Below are positions 1 through 9,189 of a DNA stretch of 41,165 nt, piece by piece. Under the pieces are notes generated by a model. That model searched no databases. It was not told where the DNA came from and saw nothing but the letters and a program-made list of their open reading frames with translations. The position numbers were made by a program, and so were the translations under genes. The DNA is from Desulfuromonadales bacterium (GTDB taxonomy: Bacteria > Desulfobacterota > Desulfuromonadia > Desulfuromonadales > Syntrophotaleaceae), in assembly GCA_013619105.1 (NCBI GenBank), contig JABXKU010000036.1:1-41165 (forward strand). The letters run 5' to 3'. How positions within the stretch are numbered: position 1 is the stretch's first letter; each line of letters begins with the position of its first letter.

Positions 1-15
1 GTGTATAAGAGACAG
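1..15. other. Nextera/Tn5 mosaic-end adapter remnant
   Basis: The first 15 bases, GTGTATAAGAGACAG, are identical to the last 15 bases of the 19-bp Tn5 mosaic end used in tagmentation libraries. They are library sequence, not genome. They lie in frame at the end of the minus-strand gene below and supply its last five apparent codons. Confidence 0.95.
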
Positions 16-1698
16 AAGTAAGTTCTCTACGATTGTCTGTATGATATAGAAATCATAACTGTCTACTAAAGAGGTCTCAACTTCATCCGTTTGGGCATCT
101 TGTTTTGAAGTGAAATCTCCAATACCAATCGAAATCATTGAGGATTCGTTAGATACCTCAATATCAAATCCATTTCTTTTGGAATTGATTAAGAGTTTAT
201 TACTCACTAAATCAACACATTTCTCAAACAAAGAGGTATTAATCAATAATTTCGCATTTTCATGACAGATGATACCAATATCTTCAACACCTTTGAAACG
301 TTTATATTTATAGGCGACACTTTCCAAATAAGACTTCAAATCAACTTCTACTATTTCTTCGCCCTCTTTGGTTTTATACAGTTTGAGTGTATCTACAAAT
401 CCAATGATTTGATTCAAACTTTCTTCGTATAACCCTGTGGTTTTATCCAATTCTTCAAAGTGACGCAATAACGTACTTTTGCTCAGTTGATTTTCTTGGA
501 ACTTCTTATTCGTTTTATAAGAAATATTCTTCAGATGACTCGTGGCTGTGGTCATAACCCCTAAAGGTGTATTCATATGATTGGCAATATTTATGAACAT
601 ACTGTCTAAAACATTTCTTTTTTCTGCAACCAATAGCCTATCTTGTGTATTGTTTAAGGATTCCATTGTTGCTTCTAACTCTTGATTTTTTGCGTATAAC
701 TCTTGTTGCATTTCATGAGATTTTGCTAAAGTTGATTTTAAAAAGCTGTTTGTATTTCGCAGTTTATCACCCATGACTTCTAGTTCATAATTCCGATGTT
801 TATAATCATCATCTTCAAGTGGATCAACATCTCTATCATGTTGTTTTATGATACTGGTATAGAAATCCATATTGATTTGAATTTCCAAATCTTTGATGAT
901 TTCATGGTAATAAAGAGCATCTTCAAACTTCGAGAAATGTTTGCTTAGCATATACATAACTCGACAATAATGATGATACACCTTTTCATTTTGTGTCAGT
1001 ACCTCAGAGTATTTAACTTTTTTAATTGTTCTTTTCGCTAAGTCATAACTTCTATTTAAGAAGTAGACTTCTGATAACTGAATAATCATTTGTATCAGTT
1101 GGAATTCATTTTTTACTTCTGAGTATGAAACCATACCCATTTTTAGATACTCTATTGCTTTGTCGTATTGATATAAATAATGATACTCATAACCTACATT
1201 GCTGATATATTGTTCACCACGTGCATAGTTTAGTTTTTTTGCCAGTTCATAATTATTTAAATAAACCTCAATTGCCTCTTCATGTTTATTGAGTTTTGAA
1301 TAGATAATGCCTTTTACATTCATTAAATCTACATAATGAGTTTCATGTACAAGAATTAAAGGTTCAACCTCTTCAATTATCTTGAGCCCTATTTCAGGCG
1401 CACCAAATAATGCATGCGTTAACGCATAGTAACGCATGTATATCACTCGAGTCGTTTTTAAATCTTTTAGTTGGGTTAGTTTTACAATCCGATTCAATGT
1501 ATTTAACAACATCGCACTGTCACTAATACCACCTATAAAATTAACGGCACCATCAAAAATGTTTGGAATTTCAATAGATAAATCATTTGTTTCATAAAAA
1601 TTAAGTGCTTCCTCCAATCTTGTCAGAACATCATCAAAATGTCCATCTAAGATGCTGCGATGCACAGAATCTATTTTTTCTAGAAATTGTTTTTCCAT
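1..1698 (-). CDS. TPR-containing histidine-kinase-like sensor protein, 3' end missing
   Basis: The frame is open from an ATG at 1698 (strong SD GGAGTGGAG just upstream) to the window edge, about 561 native codons plus five adapter codons. Residues ~1-300 are helical and TPR-like, with regularly placed Tyr/Leu/Ala. A coiled coil follows at ~310-365, then a HisKA-like segment at 367-395 whose core reads NIANHMNTPLGVM. In kinases of this type the box is HExNTPLG. Here the canonical His position is Asn373, and a His lies one residue later (His374). The C-terminal part resembles an ATPase domain only loosely: a possible N-box (DLVSNKLL) and an IIQTIVENLL-like end are visible, but no clear G boxes. 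It has no membrane segment, so it is probably cytoplasmic. Family assignment is moderately sure; kinase activity is doubtful. It lies 65 bp downstream of the MATE gene on the same strand and may be its last operon member. Confidence 0.7.
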   Translation of the reverse strand, partial: MEKQFLEKIDSVHRSILDGHFDDVLTRLEEALNFYETNDLSIEIPNIFDGAVNFIGGISDSAMLLNTLNRIVKLTQLKDLKTTRVIYMRYYALTHALFGAPEIGLKIIEEVEPLILVHETHYVDLMNVKGIIYSKLNKHEEAIEVYLNNYELAKKLNYARGEQYISNVGYEYHYLYQYDKAIEYLKMGMVSYSEVKNEFQLIQMIIQLSEVYFLNRSYDLAKRTIKKVKYSEVLTQNEKVYHHYCRVMYMLSKHFSKFEDALYYHEIIKDLEIQINMDFYTSIIKQHDRDVDPLEDDDYKHRNYELEVMGDKLRNTNSFLKSTLAKSHEMQQELYAKNQELEATMESLNNTQDRLLVAEKRNVLDSMFINIANHMNTPLGVMTTATSHLKNISYKTNKKFQENQLSKSTLLRHFEELDKTTGLYEESLNQIIGFVDTLKLYKTKEGEEIVEVDLKSYLESVAYKYKRFKGVEDIGIICHENAKLLINTSLFEKCVDLVSNKLLINSKRNGFDIEVSNESSMISIGIGDFTSKQDAQTDEVETSLVDSYDFYIIQTIVENLLLSLIH

Positions 1699-1763
1699 AC
1701 ACTCCACTCCTAATAGCTATATACCCCATGACTAATAAAATCATCACTATGTTATAAATATTA

Positions 1764-3092
1764 TTAATCTATGGCTGTTTTGTAAAGTTCACCTTTTTTG
1801 TAATAACGTGTAATCACAACCCATTCAGCATATATAGACATTAGTATCGCTATCCAAACACCATTAATACCAAATCCAAATACTGAAGTAAATAGAACCG
1901 CAAGAGTTAACTTACAGACAACATTTGCAAATAAAGCCGCAACCATTGGCGGGTACGTGTCTCCAGCTCCTGCAAAAGCACCTCTATAGATAAAAACATG
2001 TCCTAATACAATGAATCCTAAAAAAACTATTCTTACATAACTTACACCTATAGCAGTAACCTCAGGTGTTGTATTAAATGGTCTAAATAACAATTCTGTA
2101 AAAATCAAATACGGTAATGAGAATAAAATCAAGTTAACGACAGTATACCTTATCCCTTCACTTACAATCTCTTTCGCTTCTTCAATATGCCCTTCACCAA
2201 TTTTTTGTCCAACCAAAATCGAAATAGCACCTGATAAACCAGTTAGAATAACGAAAAAATAATTGATGACATTCAGTCCGATACCAAAAGCAGCTGATCC
2301 AGATTTACCACCCACACTATAAACGATTCTCATCATAATCAAACCTGTAATAGGCCTTGCGATAGACTGAACACAAGCCCATACACCTATGCTTAAGATA
2401 TCTTTCATCTCTTTTAACCGTATGGAAATTAAATCAAAGAATTCATGACGATCATTAAAGAGTTGTTTGTATAATAATCCCATCATCATTAGGCATGCAA
2501 ATCCTTGCGATAACACCGTTGCAGATGCTGCACCTCTAATGCCGAAATCCAAAACAATTATGAACAGATAGTCCAAAATGATATTGATGATATTGGCCGT
2601 TCCAAATATATAGAGAGGACCTTTTGTGTTACCCGTTGATTGAATGATACTTCGGAGTGTTGTATTTAAAAAGACAACAAACGTAAAAGCAAATATTATA
2701 TCCACATATCTTTTTATCAGTACCGCTAAAGAAGGATCAGGATCATAAACACTAATAATCTGCTTTGAAAATGCGACTGCAATTAAACTGACGGATACGC
2801 CTATGATACCAGCTAAAATCAGGGCAGTAATCCCATAGGATTGAACTGCCCTTTCATTTTTTTCGCCAATTTTTCTTGCAACCAACGCTACAACACCTGC
2901 AGATACCAACATTGAAAATATAAAAAATACGCCTGCGATAGAGGTACCCATTGAGGATGCTGCAGTATACTCAGTACCCAATTGAGATATAAACAATACA
3001 TCCATTGTTCCCATCAATATTTGAAGTATACTACCAATCATCAAAGGTAAACCCAATGATAGAATGGCTTTAAAATGGTTTGTTTTCTTCAT
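1764..3092 (-). CDS. MATE family multidrug/toxin efflux transporter
   Basis: At 442 aa it has the usual length of MATE exporters and about 12 hydrophobic helices in two homologous halves. The N-terminus (LSLGLPLMIGSILQ, then MDVLFISQLG) is the typical MatE opening, and the repeat recurs after residue ~225 (DILSIGVWACVQSIARP). MATE proteins export cationic or organic compounds by Na+ or H+ antiport in the cytoplasmic membrane. Only 1 bp separates its start from the stop of the upstream oxidoreductase gene, so it is probably in the same operon as the RdhA-like pair. This raises the inference that it exports a substrate or product of that pathway. The substrate cannot be read from sequence. Confidence 0.92.
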   Translation of the reverse strand: MKKTNHFKAILSLGLPLMIGSILQILMGTMDVLFISQLGTEYTAASSMGTSIAGVFFIFSMLVSAGVVALVARKIGEKNERAVQSYGITALILAGIIGVSVSLIAVAFSKQIISVYDPDPSLAVLIKRYVDIIFAFTFVVFLNTTLRSIIQSTGNTKGPLYIFGTANIINIILDYLFIIVLDFGIRGAASATVLSQGFACLMMMGLLYKQLFNDRHEFFDLISIRLKEMKDILSIGVWACVQSIARPITGLIMMRIVYSVGGKSGSAAFGIGLNVINYFFVILTGLSGAISILVGQKIGEGHIEEAKEIVSEGIRYTVVNLILFSLPYLIFTELLFRPFNTTPEVTAIGVSYVRIVFLGFIVLGHVFIYRGAFAGAGDTYPPMVAALFANVVCKLTLAVLFTSVFGFGINGVWIAILMSIYAEWVVITRYYKKGELYKTAID

Positions 3093-3093
3093 A

Positions 3094-4971
3094 TTACCGT
3101 CCTAACAACAATGATGCTTTTGAATTTCTGTCGCATCTCATACAACGGTCTGCTTCGTAAATTGCATCTTCAATGGAATAATTCAGATTCACTTGATCAA
3201 ACGTATGAATTCTATCCTTTTTCTCAAGTGTTTTTATTTCTCTTAAATCATAATCAAATGTTCTTATGTTTAAAACTTTCTCAGGAATCTCGATCTCGTC
3301 CCCAAAATAAAGACCATTTCCACCCAAAGAGCTGTCTATGAGCGTTGCTACAGTTTTTCCTTGGGCTATGGCATCAATCACAATTGTAGGTCTAATCATA
3401 TCACCACAGGCAAATACTTGTTGACCAAGTGACATACCGTTTATATTTTGATACGCATCAGTTACATAATCAAGATCAGTACTTTGACCAATGGCAAATA
3501 CAATCATGTCTATTTCACAAAGCATTTCATCAGAAGATTCAAATATTGGCTTAAACATCTTAGCGTCATCTAATACTTCAATACATTTATTAAGATGAAT
3601 GTTCTGTCCCTGCACTTCAGTAATACCAAAACCACATTTAAAGGTAACACCCTCTTCTATAGCCTGAGTTTTTTCTTCGTAACTCGCTGGCATCTCTTCA
3701 AATGATTCCAAACTCATAACAGTGACTTGACTGTCTAGTCTTATTGCCGTTCTAGCGCAGTCCATAGCGACATCACCACCACCAACAACTAGTATATTGG
3801 ATCCATAGTCTTTCAACTGGTTCAGATGAATGCCTTTTAAAAAGTCAATACCTGATAAAACGTGGCCATGTTCTACTTTCATTTTACGTCCAACTTGTGT
3901 ACCTGTTGCAAGTAAAACAGCATCATGATTCTTTTTAATCATATCAAAGGTAATGTCTTTTCCAACCTCTATGTTTGTTTTGATCGTAACGCCCAAACTC
4001 TCAATTGTTTTTACTTCTTCTTGAATATCATGTTGTGGTAACCTATATTTTGGAACACCATAAGACAACATACCGCCAGCTTCAGAATGTTTTTCATATA
4101 TCGTAACATCATAACCCGTACGTCTTAAATAATATGCAGCAGTTAAGCCACTTGGTCCTCCGCCAATAATACCAATGTGTTTATCATTGTTTTCCAAACA
4201 TGTCTCTTTATACTTCCAATGTTCTAAGGCTTCACTGGTAATAAAACGCTGTAATGCTCTAACGCCTACAGTACCTGTTATTTCACCTCTTCTACACCTC
4301 AGTTCACACGGTCTAGCACATATTGAGCCACAAACGCCACTGAGAGGATTCTCTTGTCTCATCAAAGCATAAGCGTCTTCATACTTGCCATCTTTCATCA
4401 ATGCAACAAATCCAGGTATATGGATATGAGCAGGACAAGCATTAATACACTGCGCATCAATCAAGCCTCTACAGATACCTAGTTTGCAATGCCCTTGTAA
4501 ATGCTTAAGGATATCTTCTTCATAAAATTCAATTATTTTTGTCAGATTTCGAAGCAGTAATTTTTCACCTAGCGAATCTGGGATATCTTTAATAAGTATC
4601 TTTAAATAGTTATAGTCTGTAGTACTCGTTTTATTTTCTGTCATGCCATTAACAAGGTCATAAATCTTTCTAGTAAAGTCATTTACGATATTTAGTTCAC
4701 GAAGTACAAATCGACACATGAACCTCATATAATCCACTGGACAGAAGTCATTTATATAAGCAATTGAAGGTTCATAAAATTCAGATTGTAACGTCTCTAT
4801 GCTGGTATTGATATCATAATCTTTTAAAAGAAGACCCAAAGCGCCACCGACTTGAATCATATGTGGTGATTTTTGACCACCCAATCTCTTGTACAGTGTT
4901 TTTAGCGTCTCATTTAAAGAAACTTCAACGTCGCCTTGTATACTTAAATGGCCTATTATATTAATTTTCAT
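3094..4971 (-). CDS. GltD-like FAD/NAD(P) oxidoreductase with a decayed NuoF-like N-terminal domain
   Basis: The protein has 625 aa. Residues ~160-230 hold a Fer4_20-type di-cluster domain (C162, C167, C175, C179; C214, C218, C222, C226). An FAD-binding Rossmann site (GIIGGGPSG, ~267-275) and an NAD(P) site (VVGGGDVAMD, ~395-404) follow, as in glutamate synthase beta subunits and NfnB-like electron-transfer flavoproteins. Residues 1-155 resemble the SLBB plus 4Fe-4S end of NuoF/HymB: IQVGGALG matches the SLBB glycine loop and CPVDYMRFMCRF matches the helix before the cluster. The SCGKCxPCR and LCGLGQ cluster ligands of NuoF are all replaced. It starts inside the end of the RdhA-like gene (11-bp overlap), which implies translational coupling. 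The likely role is to pass electrons from NAD(P)H to the RdhA-like protein. The partner assignment is inference from gene context. Confidence 0.85.
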   Translation of the reverse strand: MKINIIGHLSIQGDVEVSLNETLKTLYKRLGGQKSPHMIQVGGALGLLLKDYDINTSIETLQSEFYEPSIAYINDFCPVDYMRFMCRFVLRELNIVNDFTRKIYDLVNGMTENKTSTTDYNYLKILIKDIPDSLGEKLLLRNLTKIIEFYEEDILKHLQGHCKLGICRGLIDAQCINACPAHIHIPGFVALMKDGKYEDAYALMRQENPLSGVCGSICARPCELRCRRGEITGTVGVRALQRFITSEALEHWKYKETCLENNDKHIGIIGGGPSGLTAAYYLRRTGYDVTIYEKHSEAGGMLSYGVPKYRLPQHDIQEEVKTIESLGVTIKTNIEVGKDITFDMIKKNHDAVLLATGTQVGRKMKVEHGHVLSGIDFLKGIHLNQLKDYGSNILVVGGGDVAMDCARTAIRLDSQVTVMSLESFEEMPASYEEKTQAIEEGVTFKCGFGITEVQGQNIHLNKCIEVLDDAKMFKPIFESSDEMLCEIDMIVFAIGQSTDLDYVTDAYQNINGMSLGQQVFACGDMIRPTIVIDAIAQGKTVATLIDSSLGGNGLYFGDEIEIPEKVLNIRTFDYDLREIKTLEKKDRIHTFDQVNLNYSIEDAIYEADRCMRCDRNSKASLLLGR

Positions 4972-6139
4972 CAGAACCTCCTTGTTTATAATCTGTTTGA
5001 TATGTATTACTTTGTAGATTATATTGATAATAAGAAGGTAAAGAATTTAAAGCATTTTCATAACCTAACATACTGATAGGGCAAACTCTTATACATTTAA
5101 CACATTCATGTTGTGTCGCCATCATGTCAAAACATTTTATGTGATCCGTGGTCCTTTTAATCGCACCTCTATACCGTGTTTCTTCTTTAGGAATCGCTAG
5201 AGACGGACAAGACTTTTGACACATTCTACATCTTGAACAGAACTCTTCGATATTATAATCAACTGGGAGATCTAATTCTAAATCTGCATCGATAATAATA
5301 GAAGTATATTTTATTCTGGTGCCAGCTTCTGGTGTATGGACGATACCATAAGTTGAAAAATTACCCAATCCAGCATTCACTGCATGAACAGAGTATTTGA
5401 TAAACCCTTCCCAACTCCTCGCACGACAGTCATATCCTTTTGCACGAATAAAATCAGCAACATCATGTACATAAGCGGCACAATGAGCATAACCATAATA
5501 CGCTGCTGTATCATGTTCTGGTTTCGGATATCTATAAAGTACGTCATGCGGCATTTCATAACCTAGAAGAATCACTGTATCAAAAATAATGTCATCATCT
5601 ATTTCTACTGATACAAATCTTCTGTCTATTTTGGTCACGCCAACTGATACAAATCCTAATGATTTTGCATGTCTCTTAATCGCCTCTTTTAACTCTGATT
5701 CATCCAAAGTTTTTTCTGCATTAATTTTCGGAAGATCAATACCTTTGGCTTCGTTTAAGATCCTTTCATAGGATTCATGTAAATTGGTCTTATACCACTT
5801 CGCATCATCAACATACTCATCCATTAGAGTACCAAAAAAATTTGGTCTATTTTTATTGTTAAATGCAGGCGGATCTGGTGGATAAGGATGGTTTTTAATG
5901 GATAAATCAAATTCATCTACATCAATAATATTGATGTAAGGATTTTGATCTGTAATCTGTTTACCATGGTTGTTCTTATATTTAAACATACCGTTGGTAT
6001 AACTCCACCTCATCACTCTTGATGAATCAGTCATTTCTTTCATTCGGCTCTTTTCTTCTTGCCAGTTCTTCACGACTGATTCATAAGTCTCTTTCTTTTT
6101 CGTATCATATTGATGATACACTTTTACATCTTGACTCAT
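4961..6139 (-). CDS. Cytoplasmic reductive-dehalogenase-like (RdhA-family) corrinoid Fe-S protein
   Basis: The protein has 392 aa. The C-terminal part carries two 4Fe-4S motifs in the RdhA arrangement: C301-x2-C304-x2-C307-x3-C311-P and C336-x9-C346-x2-C349-x3-C353-P. Upstream is the cobalamin-fold segment with AVNAGLG and a TPEAGTRI stretch that matches the family's AGLG...TPEFGP signature. RdhA enzymes use base-off corrinoid and two clusters to remove halide from organohalides; epoxyqueuosine reductase QueG is a distant relative. There is no twin-arginine signal and no adjacent membrane anchor (RdhB), unlike respiratory dehalogenases, so it should stay in the cytoplasm like catabolic NpRdhA-type enzymes. 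It is shorter than most RdhA proteins. The ATG at 6139 has SD AAGGAG 7 nt upstream. Substrate unknown; it could reduce something other than an organohalide. Confidence 0.8.
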   Translation of the reverse strand: MSQDVKVYHQYDTKKKETYESVVKNWQEEKSRMKEMTDSSRVMRWSYTNGMFKYKNNHGKQITDQNPYINIIDVDEFDLSIKNHPYPPDPPAFNNKNRPNFFGTLMDEYVDDAKWYKTNLHESYERILNEAKGIDLPKINAEKTLDESELKEAIKRHAKSLGFVSVGVTKIDRRFVSVEIDDDIIFDTVILLGYEMPHDVLYRYPKPEHDTAAYYGYAHCAAYVHDVADFIRAKGYDCRARSWEGFIKYSVHAVNAGLGNFSTYGIVHTPEAGTRIKYTSIIIDADLELDLPVDYNIEEFCSRCRMCQKSCPSLAIPKEETRYRGAIKRTTDHIKCFDMMATQHECVKCIRVCPISMLGYENALNSLPSYYQYNLQSNTYQTDYKQGGSDEN

Positions 6140-6169
6140 ATAAATCTCCTTTAAAATGATAATTCTATT

Positions 6170-6197
6170 GCTATACCTTATGGCGCAAGACTGTCAA
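6170..6197 (-). promoter_or_regulatory. Predicted sigma-70 promoter of the RdhA-like operon
   Basis: On the minus strand TTGACA (6192-6197) is followed after 16 bp by TATAGC (6170-6175), about 30 bp before the start codon of the RdhA-like gene. The -35 is perfect and the -10 is imperfect. Confidence 0.45.
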
Positions 6198-6219
6198 TTC
6201 CATGGTGATATTATCATAA

Positions 6220-6232
6220 TAAAAACGGTTCG
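6220..6232. other. Composition breakpoint, probable chimeric junction
   Basis: Within about a dozen bases the sequence changes from AT-rich DNA with low-GC codon use to GC-rich DNA with Desulfuromonadales-type genes. The break falls in the gap between the RdhA-like promoter and the ispG stop codon. No insertion sequence, tRNA, integrase or direct repeat is visible at the point. A joined contig of two organisms is the simplest reading. Confidence 0.7.
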
Positions 6233-6246
6233 CTGCCCATCCAGGT

Positions 6247-7326
6247 CTACGAACTGGAGGACTGATCCATCTCGTCTTCAACCAAACTCCAGGCCTCTGC
6301 CACCAAGGCATCGGCCAGTTCATCCTGTGCCACCTTGCGCACCACCTCGCCACGGCGAAAGAGCAGGCCCTGTCCTTTGCCGCCAGCGATACCCACATCG
6401 GCTTCGCGAGCTTCACCCGGCCCGTTCACCACACAACCCATCACCGCCACCACAATTTTTTTCGGTAGATCGCGCAACCGCCGCTCCACTTCCTCGGCAA
6501 TAGGTATCAGGTCGATCTGACAACGGCCACAGGTGGGGCAACTGATAAAGACCGGTCCTCGCTCCCGTAAATCCAAAGAGCGCAAAATCTCCCAACCGAC
6601 CCGCACCTCTTCTACCGGATCCCCGGTCAGGGAGACCCGTAGCGTATCGCCAATCCCGTCGTAGAGCAGGGCGCCGAGACCAACGGCACTCTTGATGGTG
6701 CCGCCCCAGGTCGTGCCCGCTTCGGTGATACCAATATGTAAGGGATAATCGACCTGATCCCTCAACAGACGATAAGCATCCACAGTGCGCCGAACATCCG
6801 AAGCTTTGAGACTGACCTTGATTTCCTCAAAGCCAAGTTCCTCAAGAATACGAATGTGCCCCAGGGCACTTTCAACCATAGCCGGGGCGCTGGCATGCCC
6901 ATACTTAGCCAGCAATTCCTTTTCCAGGGAACCGCCGTTGACGCCGATACGAATCGGCACCCGACGCTCGGTGCAAGCTCGGACCACCTCTTCGACCTTC
7001 CAGCGCTCGCCGATGTTTCCCGGATTAAGCCGCAGGGCATCGACACCGTGCTCAAGAGACAGCAGGGCCAGTCGGTAATCGAAATGGATATCGGCCACCA
7101 GTGGAATACGGCAGCCCTTGCGGATCTCCGCCAGGGCGCTAGCCGCCTCTCCATCCGGCACGGCGCAACGCACGATATCGCAACCGGCAGCGGTCAGCCT
7201 CTCGATCTGAGCCAAGGTCGCCACAACATCGCGGGTATCGGTACTACACATGGACTGAACAGCGATAGGCGCACCCCCTCCGATGGGGACGTTACCTACA
7301 AGAATCTGACGGGTCTGCGGGGGCAT
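6247..7326 (-). CDS. ispG: 4-hydroxy-3-methylbut-2-en-1-yl diphosphate synthase (IspG/GcpE)
   Basis: IspG converts methylerythritol cyclodiphosphate to HMBPP in the non-mevalonate isoprenoid pathway, using a 4Fe-4S cluster. Visible hallmarks are the N-terminal TIM barrel (GGGAPIAVQSMCSTDT; VADIHFDYRLAL; LRLNPGNIG) and the cluster ligands C263-x2-C266 and C298 with E305 in MGCVVNGPGE. The frame could begin at a TTG at 7344, but the ATG at 7326 has AAGGA 7 nt upstream and gives 359 aa, the usual length, so I chose it. The C-terminus ends in DQSSSS and appears complete. It is the first gene after the composition breakpoint. Its divergent neighbour is rlmD. Confidence 0.96.
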   Translation of the reverse strand: MPPQTRQILVGNVPIGGGAPIAVQSMCSTDTRDVVATLAQIERLTAAGCDIVRCAVPDGEAASALAEIRKGCRIPLVADIHFDYRLALLSLEHGVDALRLNPGNIGERWKVEEVVRACTERRVPIRIGVNGGSLEKELLAKYGHASAPAMVESALGHIRILEELGFEEIKVSLKASDVRRTVDAYRLLRDQVDYPLHIGITEAGTTWGGTIKSAVGLGALLYDGIGDTLRVSLTGDPVEEVRVGWEILRSLDLRERGPVFISCPTCGRCQIDLIPIAEEVERRLRDLPKKIVVAVMGCVVNGPGEAREADVGIAGGKGQGLLFRRGEVVRKVAQDELADALVAEAWSLVEDEMDQSSSS

Positions 7327-7391
7327 GGATATATCCTTCTTCAATTACCGATGGCAGCTAAACAGTCGTTTTAAGTACTTAGGGCTAGTAA

Positions 7392-9161: not shown

Positions 9162-9189
9162 TTGAAACTAAATGGTTAACAGGTCAGCC

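Follow-up and report, generated by a model that had tools for sequence, protein, structure and literature searches.

The window analysed here, a stretch of 41,165 nucleotides (positions 1 to 41,165 of contig JABXKU010000036.1, forward strand, in the Desulfuromonadales bacterium assembly GCA_013619105.1), carries near its left end two overlapping genes, one encoding a small protein related to reductive dehalogenases (RdhA) and one encoding a GltD-like flavoprotein (Table 1). The two open reading frames (ORFs) overlap by 11 bp, as a sequence-only reading of this locus had already stated, and the ORF of a MATE exporter begins 1 bp past the end of the second. The same reading had proposed that the flavoprotein is a separately encoded, coupled reductase module driven by reduced nicotinamide adenine dinucleotide (phosphate), NAD(P)H, which continues to be the best explanation of the pair.

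Table 1 Features at the left end of the window (aa, amino acids)
Feature	Position	Strand	Basis
RdhA-like soluble protein, 392 aa	4961..6139	minus	ORF list, profile matches, alignment
GltD-like flavoprotein, 625 aa	3094..4971	minus	ORF list, Pfam
MATE family efflux transporter, 442 aa	1764..3092	minus	PF01554, E = 2.2e-56
Protein cut by contig end, sensor-like by eye	1..1707	minus	ORF list, homologue in Clostridiales contig L012
ispG (GcpE), first gene on the true host side	6247..7344	minus	
Presumed Tn5/Nextera mosaic-end adapter remnant, not genomic sequence	1..15	plus	
20-base exact word common to the window and L012, genome junction	6208..6227		

Profile searches placed the first protein near the reductive dehalogenases, with a match to TIGR02486 (RDH) at E = 2.1e-20 and 73.8 bits, which is below the cut-off of 160.35, and five further members of its family scored 81.8–89.5 bits, all under the same cut-off. 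The nearest solved relative is the respiratory RdhA PceA (E = 1e-17), and the match to PceA over residues 178–355 reached E = 1.1e-27. From 53 collected sequences, four fragments were dropped to give a residue table of 49 rows; the tree was calculated from 45 rows and 233 columns after removal of three outlying QueG-like sequences (L007, L011, L040) and one RdhA with a cut core lacking the last cysteines (L072). In this tree, several branches of which are long and flagged, the nine members of the family formed their own clade (support 100/99) on the RdhA side of the split from the QueG side (91/85), separate from the catabolic RdhA clade and from the RdhA reference rows.

In PceA, Tyr246, Asn272 and Arg305 have been described as conserved active-site residues (PMC6737245), and a dyad of Tyr and Lys/Arg as part of the RdhA active site (PMC10463259). 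With PceA numbering counted by hand from the alignments, these residues align with Tyr217, Glu244 and Lys277 of the window protein. Tyr occupies the column of Tyr217 in all nine members, in 27/27 other RdhA-like rows and in none of 13 QueG or QueG-like rows, and the column of Lys277 holds Lys or Arg in the nine members, the 27 RdhA-like rows and 9/13 QueG or QueG-like rows. The eight cluster cysteines (301, 304, 307, 311, 336, 346, 349 and 353 in the window protein), predicted to bind two [4Fe-4S] clusters, are kept in 9/9 members. Residue conservation and tree position speak for RdhA-type chemistry, short of proving it.

Eight of the nine members measure 381–406 aa and the ninth, from contig L015, which is listed as a Prochloraceae cyanobacterium, 481 aa; judged by length, a vestigial duplicate domain is not indicated in any of them, and Pfam scans of two members, those of the window and of L015, showed no fused reductase domain. 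The description of the protein as soluble held up: a twin arginine is missing from the N-terminal 60 residues of 9/9 members and present in 3/3 respiratory RdhAs checked, and no RdhB-like anchor gene was seen by eye beside the RdhA-like gene in the ORF lists of the window. As the protein scores below the RDH cut-off and lacks those respiratory and catabolic subfamily features that were tested, we refer to it as RdhA-like.

Several observations weigh against a function as a reductive dehalogenase. Besides the sub-threshold RDH scores, neither of two scanned members, one of them the window protein, matched PF13486 at E ≤ 0.001, and the position of Asn272 is occupied by Glu or Asp in 9/9 members. 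Tyr217 is a soft mark only, as a one-column shift would blur it, and the two firm QueG proteins (E. coli and L039) show His in this column with Tyr one column earlier; the Lys/Arg column, occupied alike in 9/13 QueG or QueG-like rows, therefore does not separate the family from QueG-like proteins. An AlphaFold model of the protein, calculated with 5 sequences, was too poor to be used (mean predicted local distance difference test score, pLDDT, 39.6). A weak match to the QueG profile TIGR00276 (32.8 bits against a cut-off of 200) and the Tyr neighbouring the Tyr217 column could be taken to indicate a tRNA enzyme of the QueG kind that has a reductase of its own, but we consider this extremely unlikely, given the position outside the QueG group across the 91/85 split, the higher score to RDH, and the His and Phe that both firm QueG proteins hold at the columns of Tyr217 and Lys277. 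QueG identity, which the sequence-only reading had itself raised, was rejected on the grounds of the clade and of these two columns.

Two further groups of RdhA-related proteins were noted. One is another Clostridia clade of RdhA-like proteins of 303–333 aa with Tyr and Arg kept (L063–L066, L055–L057 and L079), for which no GltD partner was seen at the seven loci with enough flank. The other comprises several RdhA-type genes of 513–518 aa per genome (L072–L077, in genomes G157 and G300), and the two that were scanned (L074 and L075) score above the RDH cut-off and have a twin-arginine start. Genome G157 holds both these genes and the soluble module.

The partner was confirmed as a GltD-like oxidoreductase by matches to Fer4_20 (E = 7.3e-22) and Pyr_redox_2 (E = 8.8e-24), together with flavin adenine dinucleotide (FAD) and dinucleotide glycine motifs. 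Its residues 1–170 are NuoF/HydB-like, combining a part that we take to be an SLBB domain with a degenerate cluster domain, followed by Fer4_20 (171–250), the FAD and NAD Rossmann folds (266–545) and a C-terminal RCMRCD motif. Residues 1–170 resemble the C-terminal portion of subunits of the NuoF/HydB/NfnB type (E to 5.6e-16), where the cluster motif ESCGKCTPCR is present; in the partner this motif is replaced, and presumably the protein starts past the flavin mononucleotide domain of NuoF-type subunits. This N-terminal part may be read as a docking or scaffold domain.

The closest solved relatives of the core are GltD units of transhydrogenase-type complexes, found in 9bov, 8oh5 and 9n5u (E to 2e-112), the record name of 9bov being molybdopterin oxidoreductase. 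Chain C of 8oh5 was taken as StnC because its 1172 residues, its GltD part and its Lys170 fit the description in PMC10482914, where the FAD of StnC is called non-bifurcating and Lys170 lies at the proximal cluster at which NfnB has Glu. In the partner alignment, which comprises eight members and omits the L015 protein cut by the contig end, this position reads Gln in 4/8, Lys in 4/8 and Glu in 0/8. The NAD(P) site carries SLE(S/T) in 8/8 aligned members, where all five top-scoring solved relatives have YRR. Work on DsrL associates YRR with NADP(H) and triplets of the S/T-L-E type with NAD(H), and includes kinetics of three model enzymes (PMC7596348). From SLE in place of YRR and this published rule, NADH is the likely donor of the GltD-like protein.

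A scan of named genomes found the RdhA-like protein at 97% identity in Clostridiales MAG21 (L012), at 79% in Acidaminobacter sp. JC074 (L013) and in a Clostridia metagenome-assembled genome (L014), and at 45% in L015. Searches of genome groups sampled evenly from larger groups, which scored few candidates each (up to 7 in the order, 6 in the phyla and 4 in the class, so that misses are possible), returned full-length members (at least 342 bits, next match 128 bits) in 6/247 genomes of the order of JC074, namely the sources of L012, L013 and L014 and genomes G196, G294 (two copies) and G157. In the class, 1/391 genomes, JC074 itself, was recovered at E ≤ 1e-40, and in the phylum of L015, 1/292, the L015 genome itself, at E ≤ 1e-20. 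Among viral contigs, 211 pattern matches included no relative, phages searched with the L060 homologue gave no match, and plasmids yielded six records, all below 60% identity and at a coverage of at most 54%.

At all eight full-length members other than the window, a GltD-like gene lies directly downstream. Counted from ATG starts, the two genes overlap by 8 or 11 bp at seven of these loci and are separated by a 12-base gap at L061; two of the seven have an earlier GTG that would make the overlap 17. In L015, the GltD-like gene has its ATG at 9163, overlaps by 8 bp and runs off the end of the contig. A GltD-like neighbour was found at 0/31 control loci, which hold other RdhA-like genes; among these controls, L045–L047 are the same places as L063–L065 and L066 stops 127 bases past the gene, leaving 27 distinct informative loci, most of them with only about 1.5 kb of flank per side. 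The RdhA-like/GltD-like pair is a conserved module, found again in a handful of other bacteria, a point on which the sequence-only reading had made its proposal depend.

A further explanation holds that the two proteins form no electron pair, the GltD-like protein serving another acceptor, e.g. ferredoxin, and the co-occurrence reflecting co-regulation only. For it, and against a functional pair, speaks the moderate correlation between RdhA and GltD pairwise identities (Spearman 0.56 for 28 pairs from eight loci including the window, L015 left out). The correlation is moderate because the RdhA-like protein of L061 is far more diverged than its GltD-like protein, and the genes adjoin at all eight other loci and overlap at seven while their further neighbours vary, with one adjoining pair in a contig filed as a cyanobacterium; we hold mere co-regulation to be improbable. 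L061 itself is the second, diverged copy of the pair in G294. Compared with the other copy, identity is only 42% for RdhA and 67% for GltD, which would fit faster evolution of the catalytic half towards another substrate.

Apart from the partner gene, the neighbours differ between loci. The MATE gene, which the sequence-only reading had placed next in line, is indeed present in the window; among the eight other loci it is whole in L012 and L014, reduced to a 55-residue remnant in L013 and was not found in the remaining five, including L015, where the sequence breaks off inside the GltD gene. As a constant part of the module it was therefore rejected, being whole in only 2/8. The same applies to two upstream genes, rejected as parts of the module with an occurrence at 3/8 other loci and two opposite-strand genes in between. 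The first encodes an unusual fusion of a TetR regulator with a glutamate-cysteine ligase (GCS2) domain, and the gene after it is ATP-grasp-like with a circular permutation. The fusion, identified by Pfam in L012 (3274–5181) and by full-length tblastn in L013 (3323–5188) and L014 (3297–5201), may regulate its own thiol-peptide pathway. Elsewhere, a MarR-type gene lies upstream in L062 (Pfam) and L059 (by likeness to L062), TetR genes lie near L060 and L061 (Pfam), and old-yellow-enzyme-like genes were seen by eye among single-locus neighbours. In the window, the gene cut by the contig end has a complete homologue in L012 (12427–14199) with weak TPR-repeat matches. Finally, L015 20–9170 carries genes for a TnsA-like protein, a Mu-type transposase and an AAA protein, an AraC-like gene (by eye), a CbiX cobalt-chelatase-like gene and the RdhA-GltD pair; the pair is possibly cargo of a Tn7-like element, and the CbiX-like gene hints at a corrinoid link.

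Base composition and alignment showed that the pair does not belong to the genome carrying the window, contrary to the sequence-only reading. The G+C content (GC) is 0.31–0.38 to about base 6000 and about 0.46–0.62 from base 6001 to the window end, with a step near base 6200 that takes it from about 0.34 to about 0.55. By blastn, window 19–6227 is colinear with L012 14124–7913 (88.6% over 6215 columns), the match stopping at 6227; beyond it, no further window match to L012 was found, L012 runs on into other low-GC sequence, and from the rest of L012 (17 kb) nothing else was found in the host genome. From about 6208–6272 onward, the window matches 4/4 same-genus genomes, in all of which pgi comes after ispG (nearly full length in three, cut by the contig end in one). 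The host's own pgi sits at the end of another contig (C190, 7603 bases), which stops at the corresponding point, and this end resembles the sequence preceding the join in genome G002. Since window 6208–6227 is exact in L012 and similar in G002, an assembler joining at a short shared word is the likely cause. The adapter 14-mer occurs at nine places in the host assembly, all at most 17 bases from a contig end, and its reversed control at none. A full-length family member was found in 1/297 genomes of the host phylum, the chimeric genome itself, the only other match at E ≤ 1e-40 being a partial relative at 144 bits; PF13486 gave no match in a profile search of the host genome, but as none of 14 controls matched either, this result carries no information.

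Window 1–6227 is thus almost certainly an Acidaminobacter-like Clostridiales fragment that the assembly attached in error to an unrelated contig of high GC, at a 20-base word common to both. The sole serious alternative to this assembly artefact is a genuine recent Clostridiales insertion into the host between ispG and pgi, which would likewise leave the host ispG and pgi ends stopping at one site. It is very improbable in view of the adapter at the contig end, the exact 20-base word at the join, the last gene cut off by the contig end, the failure to find a second border, the absence of any mobility gene seen within 1–6227, and the lack of a full-length copy in 57 relatives besides the host and in the other 296 phylum genomes searched. 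Untrimmed adapter stands at nine host contig ends (window 1–15 and contigs C7, C11, C46, C49, C57, C111, C150 and C205), and genes at these ends deserve suspicion. More generally, the window is a warning that contig-end genes of draft genomes can come from another organism.

Taken together, we conclude that this misjoined Clostridiales fragment probably encodes a soluble cobamide reductase of two proteins, for which a reductive dehalogenase is the most likely identity. In the proposed mechanism, NADH would reduce the FAD of the GltD-like protein, from which electrons would travel singly through the partner's [4Fe-4S] clusters and, by direct contact between the proteins, to the two [4Fe-4S] clusters of the RdhA-like protein. 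These clusters would pass the electrons to the cobalt of a bound corrinoid, which would remove halogen from an organic substrate, with Tyr217 as putative proton donor and Lys277 adjacent. To the points already raised against this proposal come two more, namely that NADH is a weak reductant for cob(II)alamin, i.e. for the Co(II)/Co(I) couple, so that tuned cluster potentials or a substrate-triggered reduction would be needed, and that the gene neighbourhood indicates no substrate. Regulators, and an efflux pump in one clade, are no more than a hint that the enzyme might detoxify some foreign or natural compound.

The pair could also be a two-protein NADH-driven cobamide enzyme with a non-organohalide substrate, in which another bond is cleaved reductively, as QueG does with an epoxide, perhaps for detoxification or as a biosynthetic step. 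The clade apart from the RdhA reference rows, the scores below the RDH cut-off, the acidic residue at the Asn272 position, and single-locus neighbours that include MATE, MarR, TetR and old-yellow-enzyme-like genes and no recognised dehalogenation gene are all consistent with such an enzyme. However, the Tyr and Lys/Arg of RdhAs are kept in 9/9 members, and three long catabolic-type rows (BhbA and two long homologues) are also acidic in the Asn272 column, and we regard a non-organohalide substrate as possible, if rather unlikely. Returning to the reductive dehalogenase, we tentatively suggest, in the balance and with some doubt, that the family may form a class of its own among reductive dehalogenases, one that is soluble, driven by NADH and at home in anaerobic Clostridia, and served by a dedicated flavoprotein in which a StnC-type GltD unit is combined with a gutted NuoF/HydB domain. 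If true, this would add a third electron route from NAD(P)H to corrinoid beside the fused reductase and the ferredoxin chain.

The pair bears on the unsettled question of the electron source of soluble dehalogenases without a fused reductase. According to PMC10463259, NpRdhA with its neighbouring ferredoxin chain gave no in vitro activity with recombinant proteins, and activity of the three-gene set was detected in vivo in Bacillus megaterium. A small enzyme with one coupled donor gene would offer a tractable model for testing whether cob(I)alamin can be formed with NADH in place of NADPH. Among the papers listed from the open-access literature, preprints not covered, none described an RdhA-like protein paired with a StnC/NuoF-derived flavoprotein. 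Two literature leads were dropped: one on Synergistota, with a glycine-reductase-like fluoroacetate operon, and one on deep-sea Chloroflexi, which mentions GltD in the context of Nfn.

Compared with known systems, the window pair resembles in its working, as far as sequence comparison suggests, a catabolic RdhA with an external NADH reductase. With NpRdhA, BhbA and JtRdhA it shares a related RdhA core with Tyr and Lys and, by prediction, two [4Fe-4S] clusters and a corrinoid; NAD(P)H is the presumed or shown ultimate donor of catabolic RdhAs (PMC10463259), and those studied have no Tat signal (PMC6737245). In contrast to the 704-residue chain of NpRdhA and the 1013 aa of BhbA, both with a vestigial duplicated domain, the window protein has only 392 aa. 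Electrons reach the catabolic enzymes through a fused phthalate-dioxygenase-type reductase or, in NpRdhA, probably through ferredoxins and a ferredoxin oxidoreductase, whereas here a GltD/NuoF-type partner would take this role, and JtRdhA uses NADPH (PMC10463259) while the window pair likely uses NADH. The respiratory PceA has the same Tyr, Lys/Arg and cysteines, but the window protein is shorter, with no Tat signal and no RdhB seen. QueG, grouped with RdhA as class III cobalamin enzymes (PMC10463259), shares the cluster motif and differs in two aligned catalytic columns and in its clade. On the partner's side, StnC, NfnB and DsrL contain the same Fer4_20 and FAD/NAD(P) unit. In the window, this unit is joined to an N-terminal domain that derives from NuoF/HydB and lacks the cluster motif, and it is paired with an RdhA-like enzyme; NfnB, StnC and DsrL-2 carry YRR where the window family has SLE. 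DsrL, an iron-sulfur flavoprotein that hands NAD(P)H electrons to the separate metalloenzyme rDsrAB (PMC7596348), would be the closest working analogy for the partner.

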